Of a DNA stretch of 64,000 nt, positions 4,801-64,000 are shown piece after piece. Position numbers and translations under genes: made by a program. Every line of letters begins with the position of its first letter. The stretch's first letter is position 1. Below the pieces are notes generated by a model. The model was not told the origin of the DNA. It saw only the letters and a program-made list of their open reading frames with translations, and did not search any database. Where the stretch lies: positions 2,978,001 to 3,042,000 of the forward strand of contig CP084613.1 of assembly GCA_025917655.1 (NCBI GenBank). The letters are read 5' to 3'. The DNA is from Chlorella sorokiniana. Taxonomy: Eukaryota > Chlorophyta > Trebouxiophyceae > Chlorellales > Chlorellaceae.

Positions 4801-5856
4801 GGCCGCACCGCGCGCCGGCCGGGCTGCCCCTGCAGCCAGCCTGCGTGGCGCTGCCCACCACCCTGCCAAGCTTCCCTGGCTGACCGTGAGCGCGCGCCTC
4901 CCTCCCCCTTGCCACCCGGCCAGGACCTGCGCCACATGCCCGCCCTGCAAGACCTGGTCAAGGGGCTGATGCGCACCGCGCTCAGCGGGGATGCCAGCCA
5001 GTGGGATGCAGCGCTGCAGGTGGGCCAGCCAGCAGCCGGGGCTGCGCCCGCTAAGTGGACCTGGCTCAAGCGCGGCATGCTGGCTGCCTGCGCCACTCTG
5101 GCAGCACACTGCACACGCCGCAGCTGCGCTGGCAGACTCCCAACCCCCCTGCCTCCACCCCGCAGATGCCCCACTACTCCACCTACAGCATGCCCGCCCT
5201 CAGCCTGCACTGCGGCGCACACGTGAGCCCCTGAGCCTCGACCCCTGCTGCTGCTGCTGCTGACTCAGCTCGCTGCAGCCCGCCCCCCGTGCCGGCTACC
5301 GCAGCAGGCGGGCTCCAGCTCTGCATGCCCGCTGCATGCATGGCCCTGCCCTGCTCACTTCCTCCCAGCCCAGCCCTGGTCCCCCCCCCCGCACAGTTTG
5401 CCCAGTGGAGCCGAGACTTCTCCTTCCGCCTCTTCGACTACGGCAGCGCGGCGGCAAACCGCCGCCACTACGGCGCAGACCGGCCGCCCAGCCTGGCAGG
5501 TGCGCTGCGCCGCTGCTGTGCCGCCCCCTCGCGCAGCCTGCTCTGAAGGCGCCCCATCGCCGCAACCCCCTCTCTCACAACACGTGCACCCACATCCGGG
5601 CCCCCACCCACCCACCCATGCACACGCCTCCCCTCACCAGAGCACTACCGCCTGCTGGATGTGCCTGTGGAGCTGCTGGCGGGGGCGGCCGACGGCGTGA
5701 TCCCCCCCAGTGCGTGGTGCGGCACGTGCACCACCTGCGGGCGGCGGGGTGCCCTTCTCCTTCCGCGTGCTGCCCCTGGGCCACATGGACATGACCCTGG
5801 CGGTGAAGGACGAAATACGGGCCTTTGTGCTGTCCAAGCTCACGCGCGCGCTGTGA
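1807..5856 (+). CDS. Acid-lipase-type alpha/beta hydrolase (partial AB-hydrolase lipase domain)
   Basis: Predicted neutral-lipid or steryl-ester hydrolase of the lysosomal acid lipase/triacylglycerol lipase superfamily, in the long plant-type form with an extra N-terminal region. Exon 1807-1968 (ending EESIK, donor GTGACC) joins in phase to 2148 (AVVREWFAVISQN). The lipase-associated domain follows: EGYPLEQHSVTTADGYVLQ, then MPRHGARDVALFQHG, GWVANGVQGSAAF and DVWLGNSRSN. The nucleophile elbow GHSLGAAS has its Ser codon at 4387-4389. The acid is in LLAGAADGVIPP and the His in LPLGHMDMTLAV near the C-terminus. The stop is at 5854-5856. At least ten exons are needed. Two one-base frame breaks occur in the last exon, at the C run 5702-5708 and the G run 5746-5749. 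An additional unresolved frame change lies in the low-complexity N-terminal part. The start codon is not found. Confidence 0.8.
4051..4071 (+). repeat. (CAG)n microsatellite
   Basis: Seven CAG triplets in a low-complexity, Gln/Glu-rich insertion of the lipase gene, between the first lipase blocks and the nucleophile elbow. Confidence 0.85.
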
Positions 5857-6367
5857 GGCGGCGGCGGCTGCAGACAGCACACGCGGCGAGGTGGCCAGAG
5901 GCGTGCACCCTGCACCCTGCACCATGGCTGCTGTCCTACCCTGAGCATGCGTGCGTCCGTGACCCCATTGTCAACAAGCACCGTTAATGCCCAGGCTCGG
6001 TTCTGGGGTTTGGGGTGTGGCGATATCCTGGGGAATCGATTCTGTGTGGCGCCGTGCGTTCAAGCAACTAGCAGGCAGCCTACTCCCTGGACCTCTGCCG
6101 CGGCACTCCAGCTTGATTCCCATCATGAACGTTTGGGAAGCTTCAAACCTAAAGTAGTCATCCCGACCTGTGCATGACCCCAAGTGACAGCACCGCTCAG
6201 ACCGCTGCAGCGTGCACAGCGCAGGAGAACTGCTAGGAAATCATGGATATTCGACCGACTGCCATTGATACGCTTCTATTCCTGCATCAATCGCTTGAAC
6301 TTCGCCTTAGGGACGCGTGGCTGGCTTAAACCCACGACCTTTCTGTCTCGCAAGGTGTCGGACAACC
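5857..6367. other. Intergenic, 3' of lipase and 5' of secreted PAN-like gene
   Basis: 511 bp without a supported gene. Base composition is noticeably more AT-rich from about 6100, as expected of a promoter in this genome. Both flanking genes run in the same direction. Confidence 0.5.
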
Positions 6368-8254: not shown

Positions 8255-8694
8255 GGCGCTGCTGCCCGCGCACGGCGGCACCCGTGTGTGGCAGCCGCTA
8301 GGGCTGGGTGACTGCCTACCTTGGACTACGTGATGCCCTTTTCCTATTGTTGATTCAGCAAGCTCTGCTTTTCATGCAGTTGCACTCGCATACAGGTTGC
8401 AACAAACGCACGCGATTTTTGCCGACCCTCTGCGGGTCCATCTGAACATTCACTCAGAATACTCCCTTCTCTTGGCAATGCCAGCCAGCATCGGCATACT
8501 GCAACAACCTGTAAAGACCACAACTGGGCATCTCTACGATTCAACACAGGATCAGGCGAGCGCAGTGACTGGGAGGGTGGGCCAGCGGCACACCGAAAGG
8601 AAAACAGGGCGGAAAAGCAGTCTTCAGTAAGAAAAACTGGTTGCACGGCACCGTGGGGCCGGTCATGCTTGAGGCCTACCCCGCCTGCGCCCGA
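8255..8694. other. Convergent 3' intergenic region
   Basis: Sequence between the stop of the secreted PAN-like gene (+) and the stop of the RecD2-type helicase (-). It is relatively AT-rich and has no supported reading frame. A TGTAA lies at 8510-8514 on the plus strand, about 256 bp after the upstream stop, and may serve as its polyadenylation signal. Confidence 0.4.
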
Positions 8695-10126
8695 TGCTGC
8701 TGCTGCTGCTGCTGCTGCTGGCCAGGCGGGGCCGCCCCCAGCTCGCAGCGCAGCGCGTGCAGCCCCTCCAGCACGCTGCCGCCGCCGCCGGCCTCAAACT
8801 GCGGCCGCTGCTCCAGGAAGCTCCAGCAGGTCTGCAGGCGCCCCACGTCCGCCTCCAGCAGCTGGGGGCGGCGCGCGCCAGGTGGCACAGCACCGCGCCG
8901 CCCCAGCCGCTCGCCCAGCCAGGCCGCCGCCGCCGCCGCTCGGTCCCAGTCGGCCAGGGCCCCGGGGGCGTGCAGGCGCAGGTGCCGCACCACGCCCGCC
9001 GCCTCCGCCTCCGACAAGCCCTCCCGCTGCTGCAGCTGGCGCCGCACCGCCGCCAGGCGCTCGGGCGGCCGCGCCGCTGCCGAGGGCGCCGTGGCCGGCG
9101 TGTGGCCAGCCGCTCTGGGCGGCCGGCTCCTGAACGGGGGGCTGCCGCCGCGGCCGCCTGCTGCGACGAGTGCGCTGCCGCCTGCTGCTGCCACTGCGCC
9201 GCCTGCGCCAGCATCTGCTCCTCGTTGCTGAACGCCTGCGGCTGCAGCTCTGGCAGGGCGCCCTGCCGCCGCCCCTCCTCCAGCCGCGCATGCAGCCAGG
9301 TGAGGCGCGCGTGGTCGTCGCGCCGCCGCACCGCCCGCACCAGCGGGTCGGCGGCGCTGCCGCTGCCCGCGCACACCACCACCAGCTGGCGCTTGGCGCG
9401 CGTCAGGCCTGCGGCGGGCGGGGCAGGCCGGCGGGTGTGGGTGCAAAGGGCAAGGCAGCTGCGGGGCGGGCGGAGCGGGCGCCCACCACACCCACGGCCC
9501 CCGCTCACAGGCAGCGCCAACGGCCGGCGGCTGCCGCCCCAGCGCCCCCTGTCCCCCCCACCCACCGGTGTAGAGCAGGCGCCGCGTGAGCATGCGCCCG
9601 TGCTGCGGCGCCAGCGCCAGCACCACGTGCGCCGCCTCCCCGCCCTGCGCCTTGTGCACCGTCACCGCGTAGCCCAGCTCCAGCTGCGACACCTCCACCC
9701 CCGCGTAGCGCCGCCGCCTCCACCCCGCCCCCAGGTGCGGGAAGTGCACCACCAGGGAGCGGTCGGCGGCGCTGCAGGCCACCACCTGGGGGAGAGCAGG
9801 GGGCACGCGCGTGCGGGTGTGTGCGCGGCTGTTCAGGGCCGGCTGGCTCAGCGGACGGGGTCGCAGGGCGCGGGGCAGCCCGCGGAGAGAGTGTCGCACG
9901 CGCCCTGGCTCCCTCACACACACATGCCCACACACCGCCCTCGGTCGCCCCCGACCTCCCCCCCGCACACACACACCCCGCCCTTGGTCGCCCACCCACC
10001 CACACGGCCCCCCTGCCTCACCCTGCCCTGGTCCCCGTTGAACACCTCCTTGTCGTAGTCGTTGGCCAGCTGGATGACGGCGTCACCCACGCGGAAGGCG
10101 CGCTGCTCCCCGCCGCCCACCCCCTC

Positions 10127-10168
<42 letters not shown>

Positions 10169-12282
10169 GAGCGTGGCAGCTCCGCCTTGCCGCGCGCCGG
10201 CGGGTTGAGCAGCGCCTGCAGCATCGGGTTGAGGGCGCCGGTGCCGGCGGGGCCCTTGCGCATGGGGGTGATCACCTGCGCGAGGGGGTGGGAGGGGGCA
10301 GGCGGTTGCTGTGCAGGCCCCGCGTACCAAGCGGTGGCCCTCCTGCGCGGCTCACCACAGGCGCAGCCACCATTCCCTCCTTCGACGCGGAGCTGTGCAG
10401 CTGCCCCTCCCCTACCCCCACCTGCAGATCCACCTCGCCTCCCCCAGCTGGGCGTGCGCTTGGCGCAGCGCCACCACCGACTGCCGCACCGCCGCCACCA
10501 TGTCCCCGGCTGCCGCCGCTGCGGGTACCAGCAGCGCGTCGCTGGGCGGCGCCTGCAGGACGGCGGGGTCGGGCGCCACGTGCTGCAGCAGGGGCACGTC
10601 TCCGCGCCGCACTGCGGGGGGAGAGGGGGTGTGCGGGTGGGGGCATGGGACAGGTGGTGGGAACCACAGTTCAACAGGTGTCAGCTGGCCCCCTGCACCA
10701 CGTCCCACCACGCCTGTACACAAGCGCACCCCCCGTGCGCCCACCCGCCAGCGCGGAGGTGATGATGGCGGACTGGGCGGCCTGGCGGAAGATCTCGCGC
10801 AGGTCCACCACCGGCACCAGCCGCGACGCAATCAGGCTCTGCAGCACCGAACCGGGGCCTGCGGGCGAGGGAAGGGGGGACGGGGGGGGGAAGCGGCAGC
10901 GCCACGTGGGGAAGGGCGGCGACGGCGGGGCGGGCACATCGATGGTGCAGCCCCACTCCAGGGCCAGCGAGCCGCCGGGCTGCCGCAGCCCCCCACCCAC
11001 CCGCTCACCCACGGGCGGCAGCTGGTCCACGTCTCCCACCAGCACCAGCTGGCAGCGCGGGCGCAGCGCGTCAAACAGCGCCGCCGCCAGCGGCAGGCTC
11101 AGCATCGACGCCTCGTCCACCAGCACGGCGTCGGCTTCCAGCGGCTTGCCCCTGCAGCGGCCAGCGGCGGCCAGCGGCGGCGCCAGCGTGAGCGCCGTGC
11201 AGATGGCCTGGTGCGCCGAGGGCCGCCCCAATGGGAGGGACACAGGCAGGCAGGCGGAGAGGCATCAGGCCAACAGAGCCCCCCGCACTTGTGGTAGAGG
11301 AAGCGCCCCTGTGCGCCCAGCCCCGCCTCCTCGGCCGCCGCGTCGACGTCTGCGGGGCCGCCCTCCGCCCCGCGGCTGGTAGCCCAGCAGGCGGTGGATG
11401 GTGCACGGCTCGATGCCCTGCATGGTGCCCATGCGCTGCGCAGCGCGGCCTGCATGCGGGGCAGCATGGTGTGTGTTGGGGGCGGGGTTGCCGCGGCGCT
11501 GGGTGCCGGCGTGCTGGCGCTGAAGCTCAGCCGCAGGCCTGCCAGGGAGCAGCCCAGGGGAAGCGCGGTGCCCGGTGCCGCAGCCAGGGGCGGGCGCTGG
11601 TCGTCGCGCCGCCGTGCCCCCCCCGCCCCCACCCACCCACCCGTGGGCGCCGCGATGCGCACCACCTTGTTCTGCGCGGCCCACAGCTTGACGAGGGTCT
11701 GCACCACGGTGGTCTTGCCGCAGCCGGGCCCCCCGTCACAACCATGAGCGGCGCGTCGCTGGCCACCTCCATCGCCCGCACCTGACCCTCGCTCAGCTGC
11801 AGGTCTGCGGGGGAGGGGGAGGGGGGCGGGGGGGGCAAAGCCAGCAGGCGCGCAAGGGGCTTGGTGGGTGTGTGGCTTGGCGAGGGGGACGGGGCAGCAG
11901 GAGGGGTTGGGAAGCTGGCTGGCGGCGCGCCTGCGGTGCTGCCCCCCGCTCACCGCTGGTGCTCTGGTTGGCCTGCACCCACTTGCGCACGCGGCCCAGC
12001 TGGCGACTGCTGGGCTGGCGGTAGGCGGCGGCCCGCTGCAGAGAGCGCTTGGCCACCACGCACTCGGCGGCGTGCAGGTGGGGGAGTAGCAGCGCGTGGA
12101 GGGGCCCCACGCAAAACCGGGGCACGGCGGCTCCGCCTGCAGCGCCGCCATGGTGAGCCCGAGGCTGCTGCAGCACCCGCGGGGCCGCTGCTGCCGGGCG
12201 CCCCGCCGCCGCGGGCCTCCTCCCAGGCCGCCTTGATCTTCTCGGCGGTCTTGGGGCCGATGCGGCGGCACAGGCTGCACGG

Positions 12283-12318
<36 letters not shown>

Positions 12319-14755
12319 CGTCAGGGCGCCACCCGCCTCTCTCCTTCCGGATGGCCTGCGCCGGCAGTCGCACGCCCCCAGCATGCTACGCGGCGCCGTG
12401 CTGCGCCCGCCCACCTCAGCTTCTGCACCGCCTCCTCCAGCGCCGCGTCCAGCACCGCAGGCAGGCCAAGCGCGTACCGCTCCACCATGGAATCCACCAG
12501 GCCGGGGCCACGCCTGCGGGGGCCGGGTAGGGGGAGCATGGTGAGCGCGCCAGCGGCCCCAGCAGCGTCGAAGCGGCTCAATCACCCAGCTGGCCCTTGT
12601 GAAGGACCCGCCCGCCCAGCCCCCCGCCCACCGCTCAGCCTGCCCTCAACATACGCCCGCAGCTCCTGAAGGCTGTCAAAGGCCGGGGGAGGGGGCAGGC
12701 GCCGCGGCCGCGGCTGGGGCATTGCCGCGCTCGCCAGGCTCCGCGCCCGCCGCTCCAGCCCCCTCCTCTGCGGCGCCGTCCTCGGCCTGCTGCGCCCCGG
12801 CTCCGCCACCAGGCTGCCCGCTGCGTGCATGTGCTGCGCCACCAGGTGCAGCGAGTCGGGGTGCTGCCAGGGCGGCCGTGCTGCAGCGCGCCGTCGTCCA
12901 GCAGCTGCTGCGCGCGGCGCGGGCCAGCCGGCTCCACGGCAGGTAGGTGTGGCCCTCGCCCGCCGCCGCCGAGGCCAGGCAGTGCTGCATGGCCAGCGCC
13001 GCGCGGCTGACCAGGTCGGCGGGGGCGCCCACGCGGCTGGCCAGCAGGTCCACCTTGCTGCGTGCGGGGAGGGGAGGGGCGGCGGGGGCGTGAGAGGCGG
13101 GTGAGACAGGGGCGGCAGCGGTGTCAGTCGGTTGGTGGCGGCGGGGGACGGGGCTGTGCAGCAGGGGCGGCAGGCAGGGGGCCTGCGGGTGGCGGCCCCA
13201 CCTGAAGGGCAGCCCGCAGCCCGCCAGGGCGGCGTAGGGTCGCGGCGCAGGCGGTGCACGGTGTGGGGCCCGTGCCGCTGGGCGTGCGTTGCGCCAGGGG
13301 CAGCGGGATGCCGTGCTCCTTCAGGAAGACCACGCCCTCGCGGGTGCCTGCGGGTGCGTGGGTGGGTGGGGGGGGGGGTGGGGGGTTACACAGTCGTGTG
13401 TGATGTGTGTGCATGTGTGTGTGTAAGGGGAGGGGGCGGCCAGGCGTTGAGGTACGTTGAAGTGGTTGGGTGGGGTGCAAGTGCGCAAGGCAGCACCTCC
13501 ACACCCCCGCTGCTCCCCCGGGCCCCTCCCCCGGCCAGCAGCCCGCACCCTTGCTGGCATCCCACGCCCGCTTGATCTTCTCGGCCTTGCTGCGCCCGAT
13601 GCTGTCGCACTCCTGCAGGTACTGCACCGCCCTGGGGCTGCTCAGCTTGGACTCGATGTCGGCGCCCCAGCGGGCCACCAGGCGCTGAGGGGAGCGGGGG
13701 GCCGCGGGGGCAGGGGGTGCGTGAGTGGAGGGGCGTGGGGGCGCTGGGCAGGCCGGGCAAGGGTGCAGAGCTCGCACGCAGGGCCAGCTGGACGTGAGGG
13801 GCTGGGCAGGTTGGGGCAGGCGGGTGTGGGGGCGGCCCACCTTGGCGGTGGCGGGGCCCACCCCCGGGATGGCGCCGCCCCCAGGTACGCCTCCATCTCG
13901 CCGCTGGTGGCGGGGCTCAGCTCAGACATGTCGCTGGCCCGCAGCTGCTTCCCGTACTGCGTGTGCTCCACCCACACGCCGCGCAGCGCCAGCGACTGCC
14001 CCACCACCACCGGGGCAGCGTGCCCACAACGGTGATCACGCGGCGCCGCCGCCCGCCCGCCCCGCCTCGCCGCCCGCCGCCGACCCCTCCGCCAGCTGCA
14101 GCCTGAACACCGTGTACGCGGTGTCATCTGCGCGGAAGGTCACCTTCTGCACTGTGCCCTGCACACTCACCTCGCCGGGGCGGCGGCCGGCGCTGGCGGC
14201 GGCGCCGCCGCTGCTGGAGCCGCGCCGTGGCCATCGACGACGCTGCGCCTGCTCTGCTCCGCGATGCTGCTGCCAAAGGATCCATAAGGGAATCCCTGGC
14301 GGGTAATGCTGGGGTAGGTGGGGGCGCGGCCGGCTCCGCGAGCTGCTCGGGAGGAGGGCAGGCTGGGCGGGGGCCCGGGCGACCGCCGTCTGCAGGGAGG
14401 CGTGCAGACTGTCTGGCCCCCACTGACCGCCTCCGCCAGCCTGTGCTTGAGCCTGCCTCTCTGCCCAGCGCTGCAGAGCAGTGGGCCTTGAGCCGGACGC
14501 TGTCCGCAGAAAGCGCCTGGACAAGTGCCAGGCGCTGCGCAGGTGCCACCTGCCGCCGCCGGCACCGCCAACGCTGGCGTCCTGCTGCAGGCGAGCAGCC
14601 GCGGCTGCCGAATGTCCTGTCACTGCTTGTCTCGTCATACAGGTGCCAGATGTAACTTTCAGCGCCCCAGTCTCCCACTGGGCGCTAGGGCCGCCGGCCA
14701 GCGCCTTTATTAGTAGGTCTCGCAAGCGCTCCTGCAGCAGCCGATATGTCAACAT
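8676..14755 (-). CDS. RecD2/YrrC-type ATP-dependent DNA helicase (SF1B)
   Basis: A 5'-3' superfamily 1B DNA helicase of the bacterial RecD2 (YrrC/TraA) type. In order on the minus strand: an OB-like N-terminus (VQGTVQKVTFRADDTAYTVF; ALRGVWVEHTQYGKQLRA; ATSGEMEAYLG) at about 14190-13880; helix-hairpin-helix segments (DSIGRSKAEKIKRAW near 13600; RRIGPKTAEKIKAAW near 12250); the P-loop (VVTGGPGCGKTTVVQTLVKL) at 11690-11760; Walker B (ADAVLVDEASMLSLP) and GDVDQLPPVG at about 11130-11010; LREIFRQAAQSAI; VITPMRKG; NGDQG near 10030; and the UvrD-C2 motif YAVTVHKAQGGEA followed by LTRAKRQLVVV at about 9675-9376. A Gln tract ends the protein. One-base frame breaks occur at 9136-9141, 11729-11734 (inside the P-loop), 13878-13882 and 14012-14015. 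The first ~170 codons are low-complexity, and the start codon is uncertain. About twelve exons. The gene is divergent from PSF2. Confidence 0.85.
8695..8720 (+). repeat. (CTG)n microsatellite encoding a minus-strand Gln tract
   Basis: About 8.5 CTG units. On the minus strand these are CAG codons giving eight consecutive Gln near the C-terminus of the RecD2-type helicase. Confidence 0.9.
10128..10165 (+). repeat. (CCG)n microsatellite
   Basis: About twelve CCG units in the helicase gene, close to the exon coding for the FRVGDAVIQLANDYDKE block. Read on the minus strand as GGC/GGN it would be a poly-Gly stretch, so it is either a coding insertion or the end of a very short intron. Confidence 0.85.
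12281..12319 (+). repeat. (GGCA)n tetranucleotide microsatellite in a helicase intron
   Basis: Nearly ten GGCA units. The tract lies directly before the acceptor of the exon that begins SLCRRIGPKTAEK on the minus strand, so the repeat forms most of a pyrimidine-rich (TGCC)n tract of that intron. Confidence 0.9.
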
Positions 14756-16399: not shown

Positions 16400-18008
16400 T
16401 CAGCTCTGCTTGGATGTTGCCAGCAGCGCTGCACCAAACACCAGCACCGCACCAGATGCGAAATATGTGGCCAGCGGCCGCACCCTTGGATTTCTTTGTA
16501 AAGCAATATGCCCCAGATACCTGCCACGAAGAGGCCACACTGCATGATCGGCATTGCGACGGCGAGCCCAATGGCGGGGTTGGTCACTGCCGCGATGCAG
16601 GCTGTATTGCCTGCGCTCCACACCGCGCCGGCGCACATGCCCGGAAACGCTGCTCGGCTGCTGGTGGCCTGCGGGGGTAGCAGCAGAGCAAAGGGGGTTT
16701 GGGCTCATGTGTGCACAACATCAGCATGCGTGCGAGTATTGGCGCCAGCACCGCCGCGAGCGGCTGCAAGACAGGGTGCTTGGTGCATGCAGCGGCGGGC
16801 AAGGCAGGACCATGGGTGGCTGTGTGGGCGTGCAGCGCCGCGCCTGGGTGAAGGTGATGTGGCGCGTGCAGGTGAGGGCCAGCGTGGACAGCGGCGCCGC
16901 CAGCAGCACCCCCAGCGCAAAGGACGGCACAAACTGGATGCCTCGCGCCGTGGGCGGCGCCCAAAGCATGGGTGCCAGGATGAGGCCTGTGAGGGTTGCG
17001 CAGCGGTTCATGCGGCTGGCTGAGAGGCCGCGGGTGACCCAGGCGCGCAGGCACCGCACGCAGGCGGCCCGCCGGTGCATGCAGCCTCACCTCCAAACAC
17101 TCCCGCCAGCACTGCCGCTGCCAGGCCAAGCAGCATGCGCACGCCGGGGGAGAGGCGCTGCTGCCAGGTGAGCGCGTCCAGCGCCCAGCGCACAGCCACC
17201 TCGTCGCCCTGCAGCAAGTCCTCCCTCATGCCCTCGCCCGCTGCAAGCAGGACCCAGAGCGACGTGTGTTGGCGGATGCGGTTGCAGCCGCACTGCCCGC
17301 GGCGGCCACCACGACAGCCGCTCCCTTGCAGGGTGCCACCACGCCAGGCACCTCCCCACCGCAGCCCGCAGCATCACCCTGCTGGGGGTCGGCATCGTCG
17401 CCACTCTCGGCGCCTCCCGCCCAGGCGGCCAGCGCAATGCCAGCCACGCCAGCCAGGATGAGGGCCAGGGCGAGCAGCGCCTTGCCCACGCTGGCCAGCT
17501 CCTCCCCTGCCACCAGCACACCCCAGCTGAAGGAGCACAGCACGGCCACGCCGCACCACACGCCCGTGGCGGCCGACATGCCAATCAGGCCGATGGCGGT
17601 GACGGAAAAGCTGGAGCTCACAACAAAAACCGCTCCGCTCACCAAGCCCCACCAGGTGAACACCTGCAGGCTCAGGGAAGCTCACGACAGGTTGGGGACA
17701 TGCAATTATCAGGCGTAAGCCAGCGCTGCTCCTGGTCGAGATCGACTCACCCTGGGCGGAAATGCCAGCAGGATGGCGCTGGAAAGGACCACGCCCTCCG
17801 CTAGCCAGTAGGTCATGACCAGCGGCGGCACAATGCGCGCTTTAGGCAGCTTTGTGAACACCCCAAAGGATCCATTAAATACAGCGCTGCAGACACTTGC
17901 AAGACAGGGCAGGGAAAAAAAAGAGGTGCGGCGGCGCCGCGCCACCGGTGCCCATGGAACCCAATCAATACCAATGCTGCGGATCGCTTCAAGGCCCAAA
18001 TTGGGCAT
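16400..18008 (-). CDS. TMEM144-type multi-pass transporter (EamA/DMT-like)
   Basis: Polytopic membrane protein of the TMEM144 family, putative carbohydrate or metabolite transporters. The minus-strand exons read, in order: VFNGSFGVFTKLPKARI then YWLAEGVVLSSAILLAF; VFTWWGLVSGAVFVVSSSFS, IGLIGMSAATGVWCGVAVL and ALILAGVAGIALAAW (to 17378); a hydrophilic loop exon from 17240 (REDLLQGDEVAVRW); LILAPMLWAPPTARG; and the last exon GAVWSAGNTACIAAVTNPAI, FVAGIWGILLYKEIQ. The hydrophobic segments number about nine or ten. The loop junction 17378/17240 is in phase (Q-A-G-E-G-M). The final exon needs one extra base in the run 16483-16485 to pass from KEIQG to PLATYFASGAVLVF, ending at 16400. The start at 18008 (MPNLGLEAIRS) is tentative. 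Confidence 0.75.
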
Positions 18009-27715: not shown

Positions 27716-30700
27716 ATGAAACAAACTCTCGAGGACAGTATGGAGGAACAGCTGCAGGATGTGTGCAGCCGCATCAATCAGCTGCAGGTGCAGCGTGGCC
27801 TTCCCCTCTTCTCTGCACTGTGCATTTGTATGATGATAATGTGACGCTTGCGAAATGCTTCTGATCACCCAACCTCTCAGCAGTCTCGTTGTTTGCTTGT
27901 TTGGGTGTCTCTTGCAGGCCGCTAGCGTTCCATCGGCGCTGCATGGCCTTCTGCAGCAGGCCCAGAGTCTGCTGAAGCCACCAAGTCGCAACGCACGAGG
28001 CACCGGTGCAGGTCCAACAGGCTCCGCCGCCAGCCGTCGCTCCCTAGTGGTGGGCATCCTGGCCTTGTTGGAACATGCAGCATTGCTGGCTACGCGGCAT
28101 CGGGACGTCAAGTTGCTGAAGGTGACAGGTTAACGGCGGCGTAGGACAATTACGCAGCATGCCCCCAGAAGCGGAGTGGCTGGCCAGCGTCCTGATTGTC
28201 CTGGCATTCACCGCTGCCGCCGGCACATGCTTGCCTGCAGGATGCCCGGACGCTGCTGCTGTCCGCCTTCCAGCAGCACAGCTGGCTGTGGGAGCTGCTA
28301 CTGCGCAAGCACTTGGCGGACCTGCTGCAGCACCCAGCCGCGGCGCAGGTGTTTGCCGAGGCGGTGGCGCGCCTGCCGCCCGCCACCCAGGCGCGAGCGT
28401 ACTCGGTGTGGCGCCAGCAGCTGCTGCGCTGCCACCAGGCCGGCAGCCCGCTGCGCGTGCCGCGCGGTCTGCAGCAGGTGTTGCTGGACCAGCTGTTGCT
28501 CTGCTTCCATGCCAGCAAGGTCAGCCTGCCGGCGCTGGGGGCAGCGATGCCTGCGGAGAGGACGCGGCGGGGCCGGAGGGGCAGCCCACAGACGTGCGGG
28601 TCATGCTGCGGCAGCAGCTGCCAGCCCTGTTGCACCTGCTGCTGGCGGTGACGTGCAGCGAGGGCGCTGCGGGCGGCAGCCAGCCGGTGGAGGCGCGGCT
28701 CAGCCAGCAGCAAGCTGGGCTGAGCGGCGAGCGCGCGTCTGGCAACGCGGGGCCGCACCCTGCATCAGCAGCAAGCAGTCGGCGGCCAGCGGGCAGCGGC
28801 CACCCCGCAGCAGCGGCTGGAAGCCCTTGCGCAGCAGGAGCAGCAGGAGGAAAGCACCCCAGGAGCGCCCTGCCCACAGGCGCGCGGTGAGCCCAGCAGC
28901 AGCGACGCCGCCTGCGCCGTGCGCGACGCGGTGCTGCGCCATGCCGTGCTGCTGGTCAGCCGGCTCAGCGACCCCGAGGCCCTGCACGCCATGCTGGCGC
29001 TGCGGCGCCAGGGGGGCCCCCAGTGCGGCAGTGCCGGCGGCGGCAGCGACAGCGAGGCGGAGGAGGCAGGGCGGCCGCAGGCGGGTGGGCTCAGCCGCCG
29101 CGACGCGAGCAGGGTGCAGGCGGCGCGGGCCCTCATCGAGGTGTGCCTGGATGGCATGCTGGCCCTGCCGCCGCTGTCGCACGCGGTCCACCGCCAGCTG
29201 CACAGCAAGGGCAGCAGCACGGGCGGTGTGGATGCACCCCGCTGCGGCGCCGCCAGCACGAGCGGCGCTGCTGCAGCGGGCGCGGTTGGCGAGGCGGCTG
29301 GAGGGGACGTGGGGGCGGCAGGCGGCGAGCAGGCGGCGGCAGCGGCTTTGGAAGCGGAGGACGAGTTGCGGCACACTGCAGGGCTGCTGCTGGGCATGCA
29401 CCGGGAGCTGAGCCGGCTGCTGGCGGAGGAGGGGGCTGCCGGAGGGGAGGGCGGCGGTCGGACGCAGCAGGCGCAGCGCATGTCGCTGCCCGCCTGCCGC
29501 CGCCTGCTGCACACGCTGGCCGCAGTGCAGCGGGCCGAGGCGCCAGCGGCAGACCCCGCCCCGTCCCTCCCGCCAGCAGCCTGCCAGCTGAGGGCAACGG
29601 CGGCAGCGGCGATGGACCCGCCCGCCGGCGATCGCTTGCGCAGGAAGCGGCGCTGGCCGCGCGGGTGCCGCCCTCCCAGCCCGCTCTGTTGCTGGTGCCG
29701 CCTCAGCTGGCAGCTCAGGGGCTGGAGCTGGTGCGGCAGGCGGTGGCTGCCAGCACCTCGGGGGCTGGCTCGGTGGGCCTAGGGGATGCCAGCTGGCACG
29801 CTAACGTGGCGCAGGTCGTGGCCGCCATCTACCTGGCCTGTTACCGAGCCATGTGGGGCGCCCGCGTGCTGCAGTCGGCAGAGGCCTACCAGCAGCTGCT
29901 GTGCGCTGCGCGGCTGCGCATGCTGCTGCGCGCTGGGGCTGGCAGCGCTGCTGGCGCTGGCGAGGCTGGGGTGGACGAGGAGGCGGCGGCCGAGGCGGCG
30001 CTGCTGGCACGCAACACGCTGGGCAGCCGGCGGCGGCGGGCGCACAGCGCAGCGCACGAGCCGGCAGGGCTGGTGGGGGCGCCGCTGGGACGGCAGGCGG
30101 CGGCGCAGCGGCAGGGCACGCGGCGAAGCGTGCCAAGCGAGCCGCAGACGGCGGCAGCGCCCAGGAGGTGGCGCAGCTGCTGCAGCTGTTCCAACCCCGC
30201 GCCTGCGGAGGAGGAGCAGCAGCAAGCGAGGCGGAAGCGCATCGTGCCGATACCTGTGGCGCGGGAGGCGGAGCCGCCGGCGGCAGCGCGGGCACCACAT
30301 GTGCGCCAGCTCAGCACACAACAGCCCCTGCCCAGCCCAGCAGCAGCGGCGGCAGCCGGCAGCCTGCAGCTGGCCAGCAGCGAGGCTGCCGACGCGCAGG
30401 CGCAGGCATTGGCCAGCAGCAGCGCGGTGACGCCGGCAGCAGCGGCGGAGTGGAGTGCGGGGCCGAGCCGGGTGTCCGGCAGGAGCGGGACCACCAGCGT
30501 TTTGTGCTGAGCAGGGCCTCCGCGCTGACGGGTGCGCCCAGCTGGCACCAGCTGGCTGCCTGCACAGCGCTCCGCAGCGCTGCTCTTGCCGCCGCCGCGC
30601 GCCCCCGCCGCTCGCAGCACCTGCCCCTGGCCATCCCTGCCCGCTGAGCGTCCCGTCGCTGCTGCCCATCCGCCTGCGCAGAGGAGGAGCAGGAGGAGGT

Positions 30701-39240: not shown

Positions 39241-42200
39241 TCAGTCATCCTCCTCCACCGCCGCCTCTTTGTCTCCTGCACCAGCATCCTTGGTTGCGGC
39301 GCCCTGCGCCTTGTATGCTGCCTGCTCGCGTTCATACCGAGCCTGCGGCAGCAACGGGGCGGAAAACTTTGGCACAGCAAGAGGGGTTGTCACGCTGCGG
39401 TTTCCCAGGATGCTGCCCCCCCCCCCCACACACACCACCACCCAAGCCTTCATCCCCCGGGTCCCCTTGCCCCCCCCCACCTTGTCCTGCCGCGCCCGCT
39501 CCTCGAACGGCGCCTTGTCCTCCGCGCTCATCGCCTTCCACTCAGCCCCCAGCGCCTTGGCCACGTCACCCACACCAAACTCGGGGTTGGCCTGCTTGAT
39601 GCGCTGCAGGGGCAGGGGAGCGAAAGGGGATGCACAGCAACATGCTGGTCAGCGAGGTGCGGCCAGGGCGCCGGGGCAGTACATCTGCGCCTGGGGCGGC
39701 ACGGGGCAGAGCCGCGTCGTCACTGCGATGCTGGCCTGGCGTGCGCCCCGCCCCCTCCCCCCGCCACTCACCCCGCGGTGATCCTGCGAGAAGTAGAAGA
39801 AGGCGGTGGTGGCACGCTTGGGTGCGGCGGGGTCCTTCTTCTCGCGTTTCTTCCTCGGCTTCTTGCCCTCGCCCGCTGCGCAAGGAGACAGCCGAAGGAG
39901 GGCGATGTGCGAGTAGCAAGCAGGGCATGGGCACAGGCGGGCCGCCAGTCAGGAGGGCGGTCCACAACGGCCACCCCGTCGTGCGAGCACCAAGCAGCAC
40001 CCGCCCACCCTCTGCTGCCGCCTTCTTAGGCTTGCCCTCCGACGTCTTGGCCTTCTTGGTGACCTTGACATCCTGGTGGGGAAGCAGGGTGGTGGGTGGG
40101 TGTGTTAGGGGGCCAGGGTCAGTGCCACGAAGGCCAGCAGCAACCTGAGTTTGACTTTCGCTCCCTCCAGTTTGACCTCCATCCCCCTGGCATGCCCCCC
40201 CCACACACACACACACCACCCCACCCCCACATCACACAGACACACCTCCTCATCCACCAGCTGTGCCCCGCCCTCCTCCTCATCGTCGCTGGAAGACTCG
40301 CCCTCGCTGGACGACCCGCTGGCCTGGAAGTCCCCGTCCTCGGCGTCGTCGTCGCTGTCCCGCCCGCGCTGATGCCAGCCAGGCCTGCGCTTGTGGCAGG
40401 GGAGGGCGGGGACTGGGGCGGGCGACGGTGGCGGCGCATGCCGCACATGGCGGGCGCACGACATGTGCGCGCAGCATGCGGGCCCTGCGCCCTCTGGCGG
40501 GGCGCTGTGCTGGGCATGCTGTGCTGAGCATGCTGTGCTGGGCATGCAGCACCCAGGGAGGCCCTTCAACATGTGCCCCCCACGCGCACCTGCATCCACG
40601 TCGTCCAGGTCAGCGTAGCTGGTGATGGCGGCGGCGGCGCCCGGCCCGCGCTGCGCCTCCTTGAAGTTCTCTATGCGCAGCTGCTTGGCCTGGATGAACT
40701 CAAACAGGTTGGTCCACTCCGACCTGGGGGGCAAAGCCGTGGAGCACAGGTGGGCCGGCTGGGCGCTCAAGGCACCACCCGCATCGAGCAGCCGCCACGA
40801 TCAGCGGCCATCCTGACAAACACACACGCACGGCGCGGCGGCGGCTGCCGGCTCACCGCGGGATGCCGCGGAAGAGGTGGTCCTGGCCGGTGCGCATGCG
40901 CACCGCCAGGTCAAAGGTCTTGGCGCTGGTGGCGCCCGCGCTCTGCCGCATGAACTCGATGGAGTCTATGTCGTCAAACAGGAGCAGCATGGCGGGCTTC
41001 TGCACGTAGAAGAAGGCTCGCTCCAGCGGGTAGAGGAAGCCGTCGTCGGCCTGGGGGTGGGCGGGGGCGGGTGCAGGGGGCAGGGTTGGTGCGGCTGCTG
41101 GTCGAGCGGCTGGTTGTGCAACAGGCAGGGCGTAGCAGGCCGGCTGGCCACTCGTGCACAACGCGGCAAGTAAGACCGCGGGTCAAGTGCAGCGGCACGT
41201 CGGACGTGCAGCCATGCCGCAGCAGCGGCAGCAAGCCACACCGACGCCGCTGCCACGCGGCCCCCACCCTCCGCGCACCTTGTACGAGCAGCGCACTGCA
41301 AAGCCGGTGCCCTCCGCATCCCGGAAGGTGCCCGGCTTGGTGAGCTTGGTGCCGGAGAGGCCGCGCAGCACCTTTGCAAACACCTCGTGGGCGGGGCCCC
41401 TGAAGCTGCGAGCCAGGCGCCCCCACACTTTTCGTTCTTGGCCGCCAGCGCGTCGTCGCTGATGTCCAGCTCCACCTCCGCCTCCTCGTCGCTGGGGAAC
41501 TGCTCCCGGGCGGCAGCGGCCCCAGCGCGCTCACAGGCAGCAGCAGCGCCCACAGGCAGGCGGGCAGCTTGCAGCCTGGAGGCAGTGCCGGTGGTGGGCA
41601 GGCAGGCGGCAGGCTGCAGTCTGCTCAGCGGGGCCCGCAGGGCCAGCTGCTCGCACCCCCTCCCTCGGCCCACCTGGCACAGGATGTGCTGGTAGAAGGT
41701 GTTGCCCTTGCGGATGGGCGGGTCCAGCGAGATGACCACCAGCGTCTGCGGCACGTTGGTCTTGGGCAGCAGGAAGACGCGCATGATGGAGTCGTAGCGG
41801 ATGCGGAAGTCCTGGGCCTGTGCGGGAGGCGCAGCGGGCGCAGCGCAGCAGCGCGCGACTTGGCTGAGCGGGTCGCTGGGGGGTTGGACACGGCGGGTTT
41901 GTGCGTGCAGCACAGCGCAGCAAGCGTCGTCTGCCGGCTTCCACGTGGCCCCTGGCTGCGTCCCTGTTCCAAGCAGCGTCGCCGCGCGTGCCGGCTCACC
42001 TGCCCCACCAACTTGAGGGAGGCCATGTACATCTCGATGTCGAAGCGCCCGCGCGGCACCAGCACGCCAACCTGGTCAAAGGTGGCCACCGCGTCGCCGG
42101 TGGCGGCGCCTGCAGCCGGGAGCAGCAAGCGGGGAGGCGCCACGGTTGTGCCCCGCGGCGACGGCAAGCCTGGCTGATTGCCAGGTGTGCAGCGCTGGCG

Positions 42201-43594
42201 GGGCAGCACGCAACGGCTGTAGCCCCCACTCACACGCCGGCCACCCCCACCATCACCCACCCAGCCACACTCGTGCACCCCGCGCCTGCACCCACCCTGG
42301 TCGGTGTACTGGGAGACGAGGTCGAAGAAGATCTTGGAGGGGGTCGACGGGGGCGCCGCCTCCCCCTCCTCCCCCGCAGCCGGGGCGGGCGCGTGGGCCT
42401 CAAAGTCCTGGTTCTCGCGCGGCACAAAGAAGCTCATCTCCACCAGCGTGTCGTCGCGGTCGCCTGGGGATCGCGGGGACGGGGGCAGCGCGCGGTGATG
42501 CCGGGACGTCCGGTGCGGGGTGCCAGCCCGGCAGCAGGAAGCCCGGCGGCAGCAGCCACACAGGCGGTACTGGGTGGCCCTGCCGGGGCCTGCACAAGCC
42601 GTAGCAAGCAGATGCACAGGCATGTACCCTCCCCCCCCTCAGAAGAATCCTGTCCCGACACCCCCTCCTCACTCAGCACGGTGTCATCCAGCGGGAACTC
42701 CAGCATCACCTCATCCCGCCCCTGCTGCGCCTGCGCCACATCCGGCAGCGGCAGCCGGAAGGCGGCGCGCCCGCCCACGCGGAACGCCAGCGACCCGCCA
42801 TCCACCTCCAGGTGGCCCCAGTTGTGGCCGCTGCGGGGAGCGCGGCAGCAGGGGCGGAGCAGCAAGGCGCTGCTGAGCGGAGCAGCCAAGTAGGCTGGTA
42901 CACGCACAAATTTTGGGCCCCTTCCTCCCTCTTCCTTTTCGAAGACCCGCGAATGCATGCTGCCCCCCCCCCCCACACACACACTGACACCCACCACACC
43001 GCACCTGATGGACAGCGGCTCGTCCTTGATCTGCAGCCCGCTGGCCCCCGCAGACCCTCCACATCCTTCTCGCGGAAGCCCATGAAGGAGAGGGGCGGCC
43101 CCTCGGAGCGCGACACGCTCAGCAGGCCGCCCTTGCTACAGCGCGACCACGACAGGCCGCTGATGTCTGAGGGCGGGTACAGGAGGGGGGGCCAACATGG
43201 ATCACCACCAGGCATGCCAATCCACGGCGCTGTTGGTTTAAGTGCAATGCTGTGCCGGTGGGCAGAAAATCAGGCGTGGTAGTGTCACTCTGGGCTCAGA
43301 CAGGCGAGCCCTCATGCACGCTAACACCGACGCAGCCTGCTTCAAGCAGCATACCTGCCGCTGGCACCTCCACCGTACGCCCCCGCCTGACCGCTTCCAT
43401 ACAAGGCCGGATGGTGATACTTTCAGGCTGCCCGCAGCCTGCAAAGCGAGAAGCATCAGACAAGCCGACCAGACAGCAATGCAGACAACAAGTTTACCAG
43501 CGTGAACAACCGCAGCGCTCCAGACGGCGGCCGTGCATGCCAGCGAGGCACTCACCACTCCTCCACGGCTTCCCAACAGAATATTGCCGAACAT
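39241..43594 (-). CDS. SSRP1: FACT complex subunit SSRP1 (POB3-like with HMG box)
   Basis: Histone chaperone subunit of FACT (with SPT16). Start ATG 43594: [13 protein letters not shown], then exon [20 protein letters not shown]. After a one-base break at 43380-43384 it reads RTVEVPAA, then in phase [27 protein letters not shown] and [17 protein letters not shown]. Middle domain: [131 protein letters not shown]. An acidic segment ([20 protein letters not shown]) precedes a single HMG box ([40 protein letters not shown]), with the stop at 39241. A second break, in the T run 41429-41432, lies before [16 protein letters not shown]. This is the plant-type layout with a C-terminal HMG box. About fifteen exons. 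Confidence 0.95.
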
Positions 43595-46600: not shown

Positions 46601-47189
46601 TCTCTCGTGTTCGGATGCTGTGCTGCCCTGCTGACGTGCCAGTGCCGCCTGCCTCCCGCAGTGCTGTGTTTTGTGGGGGAGTCTGGGGAGGGCGACGCTG
46701 ACGCCTGGGCCAGCGGCGAGGTGGGGGCTACGAGGCCTACCTGCTGGCTGATGACGACGGCGAGGCGGCGGAGGTGTACAAGGCGGTGGGTGGCGCTGCC
46801 GCCGCGACGGGGCCGCAGCTGGGTGTGGGCTGTGCGCTGCCGCTGTTGCGAGGAGCAGCAAGGCACAGGACTTGCACGCTGCCAGGCTTCTGCTCTGGCA
46901 GAGCCTGCAGCCATGCACTCGGCCAGGCGTGCTGCCCGACGAGCAATGTGTGCGCTCGACCGCCCCGCACCCGCCCCTCACCCAGGCGGGGGACGATGAG
47001 ACGGGCGTGCTGAACGTGTCCCCAGCCGCCAACACGCTCAGCCTGGTGCTGCGGGACGAGGGCCTCATGCGCTTCGTCAAGTATGTCAGCTGCCAGGCGC
47101 CCAGCAGCCGCTGCGACATCTCCGCCATCTACCAGCCCGAGCCGGATAGCGACGATGAGGAGGCGGCAGCGGAAGGCCAGCACGGCTAG
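43612..47189 (+). CDS. OGFOD1: Prolyl hydroxylase of the OGFOD1/Tpa1 family (2OG-Fe(II) dioxygenase)
   Basis: In yeast and animals this family hydroxylates a proline of ribosomal protein uS12 and affects translation and termination. Exon 1 (43612-43648, MATKALGMVRSK in a gccgccATGGcg context) joins in phase over a 441-bp intron to 44090 (EDVPVLRPGLLSGESRAKLK). The catalytic domain has GGHLLCHDDVIGNRRVSYII (the metal-binding HxD), GGALELYPQGK, LLPVWNTLAFFRVVPG and SFHSIQEVFTSEKPRMSI followed by QGWFHS (second His and the 2OG-binding Arg). The second, degenerate dioxygenase half follows (YVSPSYLQEGNWGRVQAKF; LRRFRPGLDYTVAHYGVL; NVSPAANTLSLVLRDEGLMR). A one-base break in the G run 46723-46727 is required to read GEVGGYEAYLLADDDGEA. 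The tail is acidic; stop 47187-47189. It is head-to-head with SSRP1, 17 bp between start codons. Confidence 0.93.
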
Positions 47190-49898: not shown

Positions 49899-49925
49899 GC
49901 ATAGCTCATGGGCCAAGTTGAGACA

Positions 49926-53304: not shown

Positions 53305-54238
53305 ATGGACACGGTGTTGAGCTACGGTGATAGCAAGCTGCTCGAGAGAGATGTCCAGCTGCTGGCGGGCCCCTGCTGGCTCAACGACCAGGCACGGACG
53401 CAGAGCGAGCTCGTTCGAGAGCGAACAAGCTCGTTGCTGCACTGCCGTTTCCCGGCAGATGGCCGTTTGCCCAGCTGCGGCGCCGCAGAGGCGAGCGCAG
53501 CCACCAAGCCGGCTTCCCCCACCCTCCACATGCAGTTGATCGGCTTCTACTTTGAGTTTCTGGCCAGGGAGGCCCACGCGCAACCCGGTTTGCTGCTCAT
53601 CCCCGGCAACAGCACCTACCTGCTGGCCAACCTGGGGCCCGAGGCGGGGCCCGCAGCGGTGCTGGAGCCGCTGGGGTTTGGCCACGCACAGCTGGTCCTC
53701 TTCGCCGTCAACGACAACCCCGACGTGACGGAGGCCTTTGGTGGCAGCCACTGGTCGCTGCTGGCGTACTGCGCCGCTGACGACACCTTCCGTCACTACG
53801 ACTCGCTGAGCGGCACCAACCGCCACGCGGCGCAGCGCGTGTTCAACGCCGCCAAGCGCCCGGCAGCAAGCTGTGGGAGCAGGCCACGCCGCAGCAGCAG
53901 AACGGCTACGACTGCGGCATGTACGTGCTGGCGCTTGCGCGCCTGCTGTGCCAGCGGCATGCCCAGGACGGCGGCGGCATGAGCTGGACGGTCACCCTGG
54001 ATGCGCTGGCGCCGGGCGACGTCGCGGCGCTGCGCCACGACTTGCTGCACCTCATCCAGGCAAAGGCGTCAGCGGCGGAACAGGAAGCCGCGGCGGCGGC
54101 AGCAGCAGAGGCGCAGGCGGCGGCACCGCCGCCGCCGCCTGAGGCAGCCGCGGCGTCTCCAGGGCTGGAGCCCGCCGAGCCGGCGCCAGGGCCTCGGAAG
54201 CCGCGAGCGCGGAGAGCCTGCAGCGACGTGTCTGACTG
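53305..54238 (+). CDS. NEDD8-specific cysteine protease NEDP1/SENP8 (DEN1), C48 family
   Basis: Predicted deneddylase. The start MDTVLSYGDSKLLERDVQLL, AGPCWLNDQ (53305-53391) matches the SENP8 N-terminus (MDPVVLSYMDSLLRQSDVSLL...WLNDH). The exon from 53536 reads LIGFYFEFLAREAH, AVLEPLGFGHAQLVLFAVND and then the catalytic His in FGGSHWSLLAYCA, Asp in FRHYDSLSGTNRH, and Gln/Cys in TPQQQNGYDCGMYVLALARL. A one-base break in CCC 53859-53861 precedes GSKLWEQATPQQQ. The segment 53392-53535 is in frame but breaks the WLND-x-x-IGF motif. It is best read as a 144-bp GC-AG intron. The C-terminal ~60 residues are an Ala/Pro/Glu-rich extension absent from animal SENP8. The stop is at 54236-54238. Confidence 0.88.
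53404..53431. other. Inverted repeat inside the putative GC-AG intron
   Basis: GAGCTCGTTCG and CGAACAAGCTC, separated by AGAG, can form an 11-bp stem with one mismatch. It lies a few bases after the proposed GC donor at 53392. Confidence 0.6.
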
Positions 54239-56198: not shown

Positions 56199-59100
56199 AT
56201 GGAGGTGGTCGCAATGTCCTTCGAGCTGCAGAACCTGCTGCCCATCGTGTCAGCGGCCATTATTGGGCTGGCAGTTGTGCTGTTGCTACTGAGAGGGAAA
56301 CCGCGCAGCAAGGTCCTCGCAGCTGGGCCAGCCGCCGCGTCTCCCCGCATGTGAAGGCCAACGGCGTCAAGGTGCACCTTATGTGTATGAGTCATCAATT
56401 CTAATCGCGTCTGTCCAGCCGCCGCCGCCCCACGGAGCCATGTTCCTAACTGCTGCCGCCGCTGCAGCTACGCCTGGTATGAGCCCAACGCGCGTGAGCA
56501 ACCTTTTGTGCTCTTTTCCGTGGTTCTATGCAGGACGAGGCATCAGACACAAGAGATCGGTGCACCATCCTGTTTGGAACGCAGACGGGAACCGCGGAGC
56601 GGTTTGTCGCTGCGCGCGCAGCTGGACAGCAGGTACGGCGGCGGCACGGCATTTGAGGTGCTGGACATTGAGCAGTACGATGGCCCCGCCCAGCTGCCCA
56701 AGGAGAAGCTGGTGTTCCTGCTCATGGCCACCTACGGCGACGGCGACCCCACCGATTCGGCCACCGACTTCTGGAGCTGGCTGGCGGCAGCTGCTGACGC
56801 TGGCGACGACCTCCTGCAGGTGCCCTGCTGCACGGCGGCAGAGTGTGCTTGCCACGTTGAAACTTGGTCAGACCCCAGGCATCGTCCGCCTGCATTGTCC
56901 CAGGCTGTTTGATTGTAGCAGGCGGGCAGGCGGCCGCTTGCCGCGCCGTGCTTCACGTGCTGCTGCCGGGTATGCAGGGCGTATCGTTTGGAGTGTTTGG
57001 GCTGGGCAACCGTCAGTACGAACACTTCTGCGCCGTGGGGCGCAAGGTGTCCAAGGCCATGCGGGCGCTGGGCGCTGCCGAGGTGGTGCCGCGCGGCGAG
57101 GGCGACGACGACCGCGACATCGACGAGGACTTTGACCGCTGGTGTGCGGCGCTGTTCAAGGCGCTGGATGCGTCGGGGCTGGTGGCGCAGGGGCAGGTGG
57201 GTTGGGGGTTTGGGGGCAAGTGGGGAGGCAGGAGGGGTGGGGAGCGGCGAAAAAGCCTATGGGGACTGGCGAAGGAGCATGCGCAGCAGGGACAGTGAGC
57301 AGCAACTGCCTGCTGGCCTCCCACCCACGCTCGCGTGCAGGCCAACGGCGGCGGCGGCCAGCCCGCCGACTTTCTGGCCGCGTACGAGGTGGAGCAGGTG
57401 TCGGCGGCAGAGGTGCCGCGCTCGGAGGTGGACGCGCGCCCCGCTGGGGGCACCGGCCTCAACGCCCACAGCCCCTTCCTGGCCGCCGTCACCGCGGTGC
57501 GCGAGCTGCACGCTGGCGGCGGCCGCTCCTGCGTGCACGTGGAGGTGGACATTGCGGGCTGTGCTGCGACGTACGAGGCGGGGGACCACGTGGCGGTGCT
57601 GGCGGAGAACTCGCCGGCGGTGGTGGAGGCGGCAGCCGCCGCGCTGGGCCTGCCGCTCGACACCTGCTTCCGCCTGCGCCTGCCCCCGCCAACCGGCAAC
57701 GCCTGCCGGAGCCGCCGTCGGCGGGCCCGCTGACGCTGCGGGCCGCGCTGGCACGCCACGCCGACCTGCTGTCCGCGCCCAACAAGGCTGCGCTGCTGGC
57801 GCTGGCGGCCTGCGCCAAGGATGCCGGGAGGCGGCGCGCCTGCAGCGCCTGGCATCCATCGAGGGTGGGTGCCCCCTGCCCACCCGCCCACCCGCCTCCT
57901 GTTGCGCTGCCAAGAAACTGCTGCACAGCGGGCACATGGACAGACACAGGCACTGACACATGAACTTCGCCTGCCTGTCCCCCCTGACACACACACACAC
58001 ACACAGGCACCGAGGAGTACCACAGTTACGTCGTGGCCGCCAAGCGCTCGCTGCTGGAGGTCATGCAGGACTTCCCCTCCGCCAAGCCCTCCCTGGGTGA
58101 GCTCGCATGCAAGGCTTGGAGCAGCACGGTGCCTGCACTGCTGCATGCCTGTGGCCCGCCGCCAGGCTGGCGCCAGGCTGGCGCCAGGCCGGACCGCCCC
58201 TCCAGCCGCGTGCTGCCCCACGCTGATGCACCCCCGCCGCCGCCTTGTGTCGACCCGCAGGAGTGTTCTTTGGCAGCGTGGCGCCGCACCTGCAGCCCCG
58301 CTACTACTCCATCTCCTCCTCACCCGCCCAGCACCCGCGCGCCGTGCACATCACGTGCGCGGTGGTGAGGGAGCGCATGCCCAGCGGGCGCCTGCACGAG
58401 GGCGTGGCCTCCTGCTGGCTGGCACGCGCGCGGCCGGGGACCGCGTGCCGCTCTTCCTTCGCCGCTCCTCCTTCAAGCTGCCGCCCAGCCCCGCGGTGCC
58501 GGTTGTGATGGTGGGGCCGGGCACGGGCCTGGCCCCCTTCCGCGGCTTCCTGCAGCATCGCGCCGCCCTGCTGCAGTCAGGTGGGCGCCACCTGGCGGTC
58601 GTGCGGTCAGCGCGGCCGGCGTTGCCGCATGGGCAAACAGAGCAATCCGCCCTGCTTTGGGTGCACGCCGACTCCCGCACACCAACCGTGGCGTCGGCCC
58701 CGCGCTGCCCCCTCCCGCAGGCCAGCGTCTGGGCGCCGCGCACCTGTTCTTTGGATGCCGCAACCGTCGTCACGACTTCATCTACGAGGCGGAGCTGGAG
58801 GCGGCGGTGGCGGGCGGCGCGGTCACGCAGGTGCACGCCGACAGCTGGTGCCGCGCCGCACCTGCTACAGCTGCCGTGCGTTGGAGATGCTGTGGTGGTG
58901 TTTGGGATCTGCCTCCCAGTTTCCGCCCGGCCTGGCTCTGGCTCCAGCACTTGTCCCCCTGCCTGCCCCCCTCCCGGCCACCCGCAGCTGCACGTGGCGT
59001 TTTCGCGGGACAAGCCCCAGAAGGAGTACGTGCAGCACTTGATGGAAGCACACGCGGCCGAGGTGTGGGCCATCCTCAGCGACTCGGGTGAGCAGCGGCA

Positions 59101-62346: not shown

Positions 62347-62872
62347 TGATTTTGAGGGGAGAGCAGTAACCTTCGCACTTCAGACATGCTGCTGGACCTG
62401 ACGCCTAGGGGCCTTTTAGCCGCGGACCGTGGAAACTAGAACAGCTGTAACATTACGCACCTGAAAGTATGGACACCCTTCTATCTTAGCTCACGCGCGG
62501 AAGCATAGCACACAGCATGAGGTGATGCAAGACGCAAACGCAACGCAAGGGATGCCCACTTGTCCACCTGCCAAAGCCGACATCGACGCGACGCGAAGCG
62601 GGGAAAATTAGCCCCCTCGGCACTCTCACCTGCAGCCCCCTCTCGGCTGTAGGCGCTGGGCAGCACTGCCATGCCTGTTCCAAATACATTCTCGTAGACT
62701 ACGCGTTTGCCGGATAGCCAACACGTAAGCGATAGACTTGGGGTTTTGCTGAGGGAGGGGCGTCCGGCACGGCTACATGCGCCCCCCAATTTTGTGCACT
62801 TGATCCGCAGCGATTAGGTTGACCTTAAGAGGATCTCTTGGCTGCAGGTGGGGTCAGTCGACTTGCTTGGGC
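62347..62872. other. Intergenic with TGTAA at 62446-62450; no gene seen
   Basis: About 530 bp. The chlorophyte-type TGTAA lies 100 bp after the preceding stop. The rest is relatively AT-rich and probably contains the promoter of the KH-domain gene. A minus-strand open frame (62481-62789) has no coding character that I can support. Confidence 0.45.
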
Positions 62873-64000
62873 ATGCCTGCTAAGGAAGGAGGGCGTGGCG
62901 GTAGCAAGGCTCCCAGTTTTCATAGCAAACTGCGACGCCTCGGTTAGTGGAGGCACTTCAGGCTGAGCTGCACCGCTGGGAAGCTTGCTGGCAGTTACTG
63001 CACCGGTCGCTTCCAGCACCGGTCGCTGCCACCACAGAGCGACAGCGATCGTTGCTCATTCCCCTCCTTGACAGGCTTGCTAGAGAGCCGGCAGTCTGGC
63101 AAGTCCAAACAGCTCACTTTTGTGCTATATTTCCCACGTCCGCCATACCGCGGCGCCCAGTATCGCGCGGCTCGGGGCAAGGTGCGCTGCTTCGCTGTGG
63201 ATGGCAGAGCTGGTTGGCTTACTGCAAGGTGCTCTTCATAAGCCCCACTAATCGATCCATCATCGTTCAAGCTACAGGACGGCCTTTACAATTTCGTTGG
63301 GCTGGTGTTGGGCCATGGTGGCGGCACGGTGCAGCGCATACAAAAGTCGTCGGGCGCCAAGATTGAGGTAGGGTGGCGGCCAGCCACGGAGCGGCGCTCA
63401 CCACACATTCAGTCGCCCCCACCCACGCCTGGCCGCGGCTTGTGCACCTGCAGGTCCGTGATTCAGCTGGGAACCTGAACGGCGCACACCCCTCGTCGCA
63501 CGGCGACCCCACCCTGCACGCCTGGGTGTCTGCCGCCAACCGGCAGCGCCTGGACAAGGCTGTGGCGCTGCTGCTGGAGGTGCTGCAGCCCACCAACAGC
63601 AAGCTGCGCAAGTTCGGGGTGGATCCGGGGGCTCAGTGGTGCTGGAGCCCGAGGTGCCCGGGTGAGCGCGCGGCGGGGCTGGAGGCCCTGGGGCGACACG
63701 AGTTGCACTGACGCGGCTTGCATGGGCTCCTGCAGAGTGTGTCCGCTTTCCTCACAGGAGTATCATGCACCACTTCACACCCTTGCAGCGTTGGGCCTGC
63801 GTCGGCAGGGGCAAGTCAAGAAGCAGCCGAGGAGTCGTCCAATGCAACGCCGGCCAGCCCCCCGTCCGCACCCTCCGCCAACGCAAACGCGTGGGACAGC
63901 AAGCGGCTGCTGCTGAAGCCGCTGCCCGACGGGCGCCAGATGTCGCCCACCTCCACGCTGGAGCGCCACCAGGCAGCTGCCGCCATCGCGGAGAGCTGCG
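62873..64000 (+). CDS. KH-domain RNA-binding protein, 5' part (continues past the window)
   Basis: Putative RNA-binding protein of the SF1/BBP-like KH superfamily. The clear part is a KH domain: LQDGLYNFVGLVLGHGGGTV, QRIQKSSGAKIE (the GxxG loop here is GHGG) ending at a GTAGGG donor near 63367. It joins to V|RDSAGNLNGAHPSSHGD, LHAWVSAANRQRLDKAVALL and LEVLQPTNSKLRKFGVDPG. A one-base break in the G run 63627-63631 gives GGSVVLEPEVPG at the exon end. The last exon (GPASAGASQEAAEESSNATP; SANANAWDSKRLLLKPLPDG) runs off the window. The ATG at 62873 (MPAKEGGRGGSKAPSFHSKL) with donor GTTAGT is a plausible start. An intermediate exon around 62960-63080 (AELHRWEACWQLL) is possible. The start is tentative; the KH domain is firm. 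Confidence 0.7.

Follow-up and report, generated by a model that had tools for sequence, protein, structure and literature searches.

Do the many reading-frame breaks in a 64-kb window of the Chlorella sorokiniana genome belong to the alga or to its printed sequence? The window, which is the whole stretch of DNA that we analyzed, is part of contig C3 of a 38.8-Mb assembly of 15 contigs. An earlier note had listed 25 sites in it at which conserved exons appeared to lose the frame at mononucleotide runs, and had attributed them to homopolymer undercalling. Leaving that list unused, we aligned three genes, SSRP1, NADPH-P450 reductase, and RecD2, with protein homologs (86 SSRP1 proteins, the best 120 of 2,200 P450 reductases, and the best 120 of 7,123 RecD-like helicases). 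Position scores were taken from hand-chosen sets of 35 SSRP1, 21 P450 reductase, and 24 RecD homologs. The spliced, frameshift-aware aligner read the printed DNA, penalized codons lacking one base and codons with one extra base equally, and allowed GT/GC-AG introns as a rival to each frameshift. The 5,380 coding bases aligned yielded 13 breaks, of which 12 were of class −1, i.e., one base short. Three breaks fell in SSRP1, four in P450 reductase, three in the main part of RecD2, and three in the N-terminal part of RecD2. The N-terminal calls come from a low-scoring alignment (score, 66), and the tally is 9 to 1 without them.

The SSRP1 gene of the window encodes a protein 77% identical to one of Micractinium sp. 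CCAP 211/92. Its three exon breaks, all on the reverse strand and all of class −1, each have a G5 run in the interval over which the position of the break is uncertain. The intervals are 43374 to 43387 (listed earlier at 43380), 43031 to 43053 (missed by the earlier list), and 41414 to 41424. The last of these had been listed as a T4 run at 41429 to 41432, the one A/T site claimed; the aligner places the break better in the coding-strand G5 run, and it is probably a G run that is affected.

The P450 reductase, on the forward strand, is 74% identical to a protein of Micractinium tetrahymenae and 73% identical to one of Chlorella sorokiniana among the matches listed. Three of its breaks are of class −1 and correspond to listed sites: 57686 to 57705, where the interval touches a C5 run (listed at 57683); 57823 to 57830, with a longest run of three (57826); and 58428 to 58447, with a longest run of four (58436). 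The fourth, at 56606 to 56612, is the only class +1 call and was missed by the list. Two residues that are present in 8 of 8 homologs displayed are missing beside it; therefore, bases are short there too.

A nuclear RecD2-type helicase gene with many introns occupies positions 9209 to 14164 on the reverse strand. Its closest full-length relatives, among the matches listed, are algal-type and metagenomic proteins, followed by cyanobacterial ones. All six calls in this gene are of class −1. In the main part, one break lies at a G6 run at 11723 to 11739 (listed at 11729), and two others, at a C5 run at 12075 to 12088 and a G5 run at 10097 to 10122, were absent from the list; the call at 12075 to 12088 is weak and was made with one of two references. 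The low-scoring N-terminal alignment gave a break with a G5 run at 13871 to 13884 (listed at 13878) and two weak calls within 13231 to 13288, where the longest run is three.

We asked how these breaks relate to run length. Eight of the 13 break intervals contained a run of at least five, compared with 1.17 expected for random intervals of equal lengths started in the same coding sequence, and none of 3,000 resamplings reached eight. Runs of at least four were found in 9 of the 13 intervals, against 2.9 expected. When each break was assigned to the longest run of its interval, breaks fell on 3 of 152 coding runs of length three, 1 of 46 of length four, 7 of 21 of length five, and 1 of 2 of length six; this assignment favors long runs, and the resampling is the fair test of run dependence. 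Both the association with runs and the sign bias exceed chance in the three genes. As a control, we ran the same aligner on six GC-rich bacterial RecD genes with two references each, and no frameshift was called in the 12 alignments. These controls were drawn from single-piece matches and are intact by choice, and hence they gauge false calls only.

The alignments of SSRP1, P450 reductase, and the main part of RecD2 were repeated with four different penalty settings. Six breaks were kept in every one of them: the entire P450 reductase set, SSRP1 near 41418, and RecD2 near 11736. The SSRP1 break near 43047 was kept in three settings, those near 43378 (SSRP1) and 10119 (RecD2) in two, and the RecD2 break near 12085 in one. 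The same alignments bear on whether the earlier note mistook unrecognized introns, or faulty gene models, for frameshifts. Such a reading gains from the RecD2 break near 10119, which a 62-base intron replaced in two of the four settings, and from the six listed sites (9136, 18472, 21824, 29554, 30075, and 62035) that were judged by eye only, outside the stretches tested. However, introns competed with frameshifts throughout, the break intervals span only 5 to 26 bases, and forbidding frameshifts lowered the scores of the three genes from 1095 to 1002, from 1576 to 1316, and from 807 to 740 (costs of 93, 260, and 67 units). Introns, which the note itself had named as able to overturn its claim, are thereby refuted for most breaks in the three genes, and we consider it extremely improbable that misread introns or gene models account for the breaks.

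Tool-based tests took in 19 of the 25 listed sites, and the frames around all 25 were inspected, 23 of them together and the two SSRP1 sites separately. Mononucleotide runs occupy 24 of the listed coordinates; the remaining one, 29554 to 29562 (CCCCGCCCC), is not one run. A frame break was supported by a tool at 11 of the 25, 7 by the spliced aligner (43380 and near 41429 in SSRP1; 11729 and 13878 in RecD2; 57683, 57826, and 58436 in P450 reductase) and 4 by profiles spanning the join of two frames. Among the latter, the RecD2 OB fold (reverse strand, 14012 to 14015) scored 61.2 bits with OB_YrrC when the frames were joined, compared with 29.3 in one frame. Across the join at 53859 to 53861 in a NEDP1/SENP8-like gene (forward strand), Peptidase_C48 scored 46.1 bits, compared with 16.6 and 25.8 for the pieces apart, and SENP8 structures aligned across it too. 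Profile support was weak at the other two sites. In the TMEM144-like gene (reverse strand, 16483 to 16485), the profile reached its end with joined frames at 22.6 bits, below the Pfam cutoff, and a longer one-frame piece scored 28.3. In the OGFOD1-like gene (forward strand, 46723 to 46727), Ofd1_CTDD scored 21.0 bits across the join, also below the Pfam cutoff. The breaks are thus truly present in the printed letters, and the observation made in the earlier note is confirmed in part.

At eight further sites (5702, 5746, 54876, 54926, 48584, 52500, 61901, and 63627), the frames looked right by eye, but no trusted match crossed the join. Pfam searches of the one-frame pieces left 13 of 20 without a match at 0.1; joined peptides improved Pfam support for 4 of 10, and five further peptides of these 10 gave nothing trusted in Pfam. 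The DHH join matched only DUF6349 (E value of 0.0024, under its cutoff). The lipase joins matched gastric lipase with an E value of 0.02, the match ending at about the first join, and gave noise (E value of 0.7) when the earlier exon was left out. Gene names that lack homology evidence of their own here are those of the earlier note. The window also contains a tandem array at 36443 to 37228 (self-matches of 80 to 88% identity at a shift of ~69 bases) and another pair of repeats of ~210 bases at 37796 to 38171 (85% identity; shift, ~163 bases); no tRNA gene and no Rfam match were found in the 64 kb.

Any single one of these breaks would inactivate its gene, as expected if the genes of the region were truly decayed in the organism. 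However, no second SSRP1 was found in the assembly, where matches outside the window had only 33 to 44% identity to the last 110 residues. The matched exons remain 60 to 90% (SSRP1) and 67 to 80% (P450 reductase) identical to those of a relative, and the breaks favor runs of at least five. For P450 reductase, no match outside the window exceeded 51% identity, i.e., there was no close second copy. Neither relaxed constraint nor an intact copy elsewhere was found for these two genes. The plastid genes rbcL, atpB, and tufA are broken as well, and we regard pseudogenization as very improbable. The earlier note's dismissal of mass pseudogenization is supported by the well-conserved exons and the single SSRP1.

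The plastid genes lie on contig C15 (117,793 bases), which carries rbcL, atpB, tufA, and other plastid genes. Together with the protein identities given above, this contig marks the organism as a photosynthetic green alga close to Micractinium and Chlorella. In rbcL, rps2, atpB, and tufA (twice), adjoining profile positions were matched in another frame with no room for an intron. The chlI gene also changes frame with no room for an intron, its lid domain lying in a different frame from the ATPase part; the chlI pieces match neighboring domain families rather than one profile. Four of these six breaks are of class −1, and two (rbcL and rps2) are of class +1 or −2. Three of the six intervals, which are bounded by stop codons, contain a run of five. 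A scan of the contig listed 23 pairs of frames on the same strand (17 of class −1 and 6 of class +1), which is not an error count; some pairs look like junctions of neighboring genes, and we used only the six pairs in profile-recognized genes. In one scanned pair (L009, C15:3469-3481), a chlL-like frame ends within 13 bases and no run is longer than two. This is perhaps an intron edge instead of an error; the pair may mark a chlL intron.

On nuclear contigs, we hand-sorted profile matches for HSP70 (57 matches), Cpn60 (55), and kinesin (78). Five neighboring pairs, one for HSP70, none for Cpn60, and four for kinesin, were in different frames and −5 to 17 bases apart; the next smallest gap found between neighboring matches was 69. 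A sixth different-frame pair came from a RuBisCO-like match on contig C8. The breaks are therefore found across the assembly, the organelle included. By coordinate arithmetic, two of these six nuclear pairs belong to class −1 and four to the other class. Hence, the claim that the sequence is always one base short describes the three genes of the window, with their single exception, and fails for two of six plastid breaks and four of six nuclear pairs outside the window. The C8 match itself (C8:364001-364271) is a RuBisCO-large-like fragment in two frames on a nuclear contig, and is either plastid DNA that has moved to the nucleus or a gene of the RuBisCO-like kind.

Insertional RNA editing in the mitochondria of Physarum allows proteins to be encoded by DNA that lacks a base at some positions. 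The breaks described here resemble that system in the same respect. The printed run lengths could then be true, with the alga inserting bases at short runs of its nuclear and plastid messages, or frames could be restored by programmed frameshifting. DNA alone is compatible with such restoration by the cell, and the two frames together do give the full-length protein. However, it would be needed in both genomes, nuclear and plastid, at a frequency near one event per 400 coding bases, and the reported proteins of related algae align across the breaks. Unlike in Physarum, nuclear and plastid genes are affected alike and runs of at least five are favored, and the case is known here from DNA. We know of no such editing or frameshifting system in green algae. 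Restoration of frame by the cell is scarcely credible as an explanation, and we give no greater credence to base insertion by the alga at truly short runs.

We conclude that the frame breaks are, very probably, consensus errors of the genome assembly. Undercalled homopolymers, the cause proposed in the earlier note, are supported as the explanation that agrees with most of the test results, because 12 of the 13 breaks in the window are of class −1, breaks concentrate in runs of at least five, the control gave no false calls, essential plastid genes show the same fault, the search for another SSRP1 copy found none, and deletion profiles published for nanopore data are similar in shape. The breaks of other classes outside the window count against it, as do the 5 of 13 window intervals without a run of five and the loss of some calls under other penalty settings.

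In a bacterial nanopore assembly, most indels were false deletions, which were commonest following four to five identical bases (PMC12007338). According to a second report, reading accuracy is lowest in G and C runs, above all in GC-rich species (PMC8486125). As in these assemblies, we see mostly deletions, homopolymers of about four to six, and many conserved genes broken. Unlike in PMC12007338, where A/T runs were affected more than G/C runs, the runs here are of G/C in GC-rich nuclear DNA, and this difference also counts against undercalling. The assembly may have been made with older nanopore chemistry. We take it as very probable that a long-read assembly with too little polishing by accurate reads has lost bases, most commonly one G or C, from runs that are printed as five and were probably six originally. 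On this reading the genes themselves are intact in the alga, and accurate reads would be expected to show longer runs.

We also considered a drop in run counts (G/C runs from five to six; plastid A/T runs from seven to eight) as a signature of collapsed runs. The window and eight 5-kb nuclear samples show a sharp drop from five to six. The drop from five to six was also seen in GC-rich bacterial DNA (two long stretches and four short ones); therefore, we rejected the signature as not diagnostic and did not use it.

The frame breaks are best regarded as an ordinary assembly artifact, without biological novelty, but one that matters in practice to anyone using this genome. At the density measured in three genes, roughly one break for every 400 coding bases, many genes are predicted to appear split, truncated, or missing. 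Gene counts, gene lengths, domain losses, and pseudogene counts taken from this assembly, plastid genes included, are untrustworthy unless accurate reads are brought to bear.
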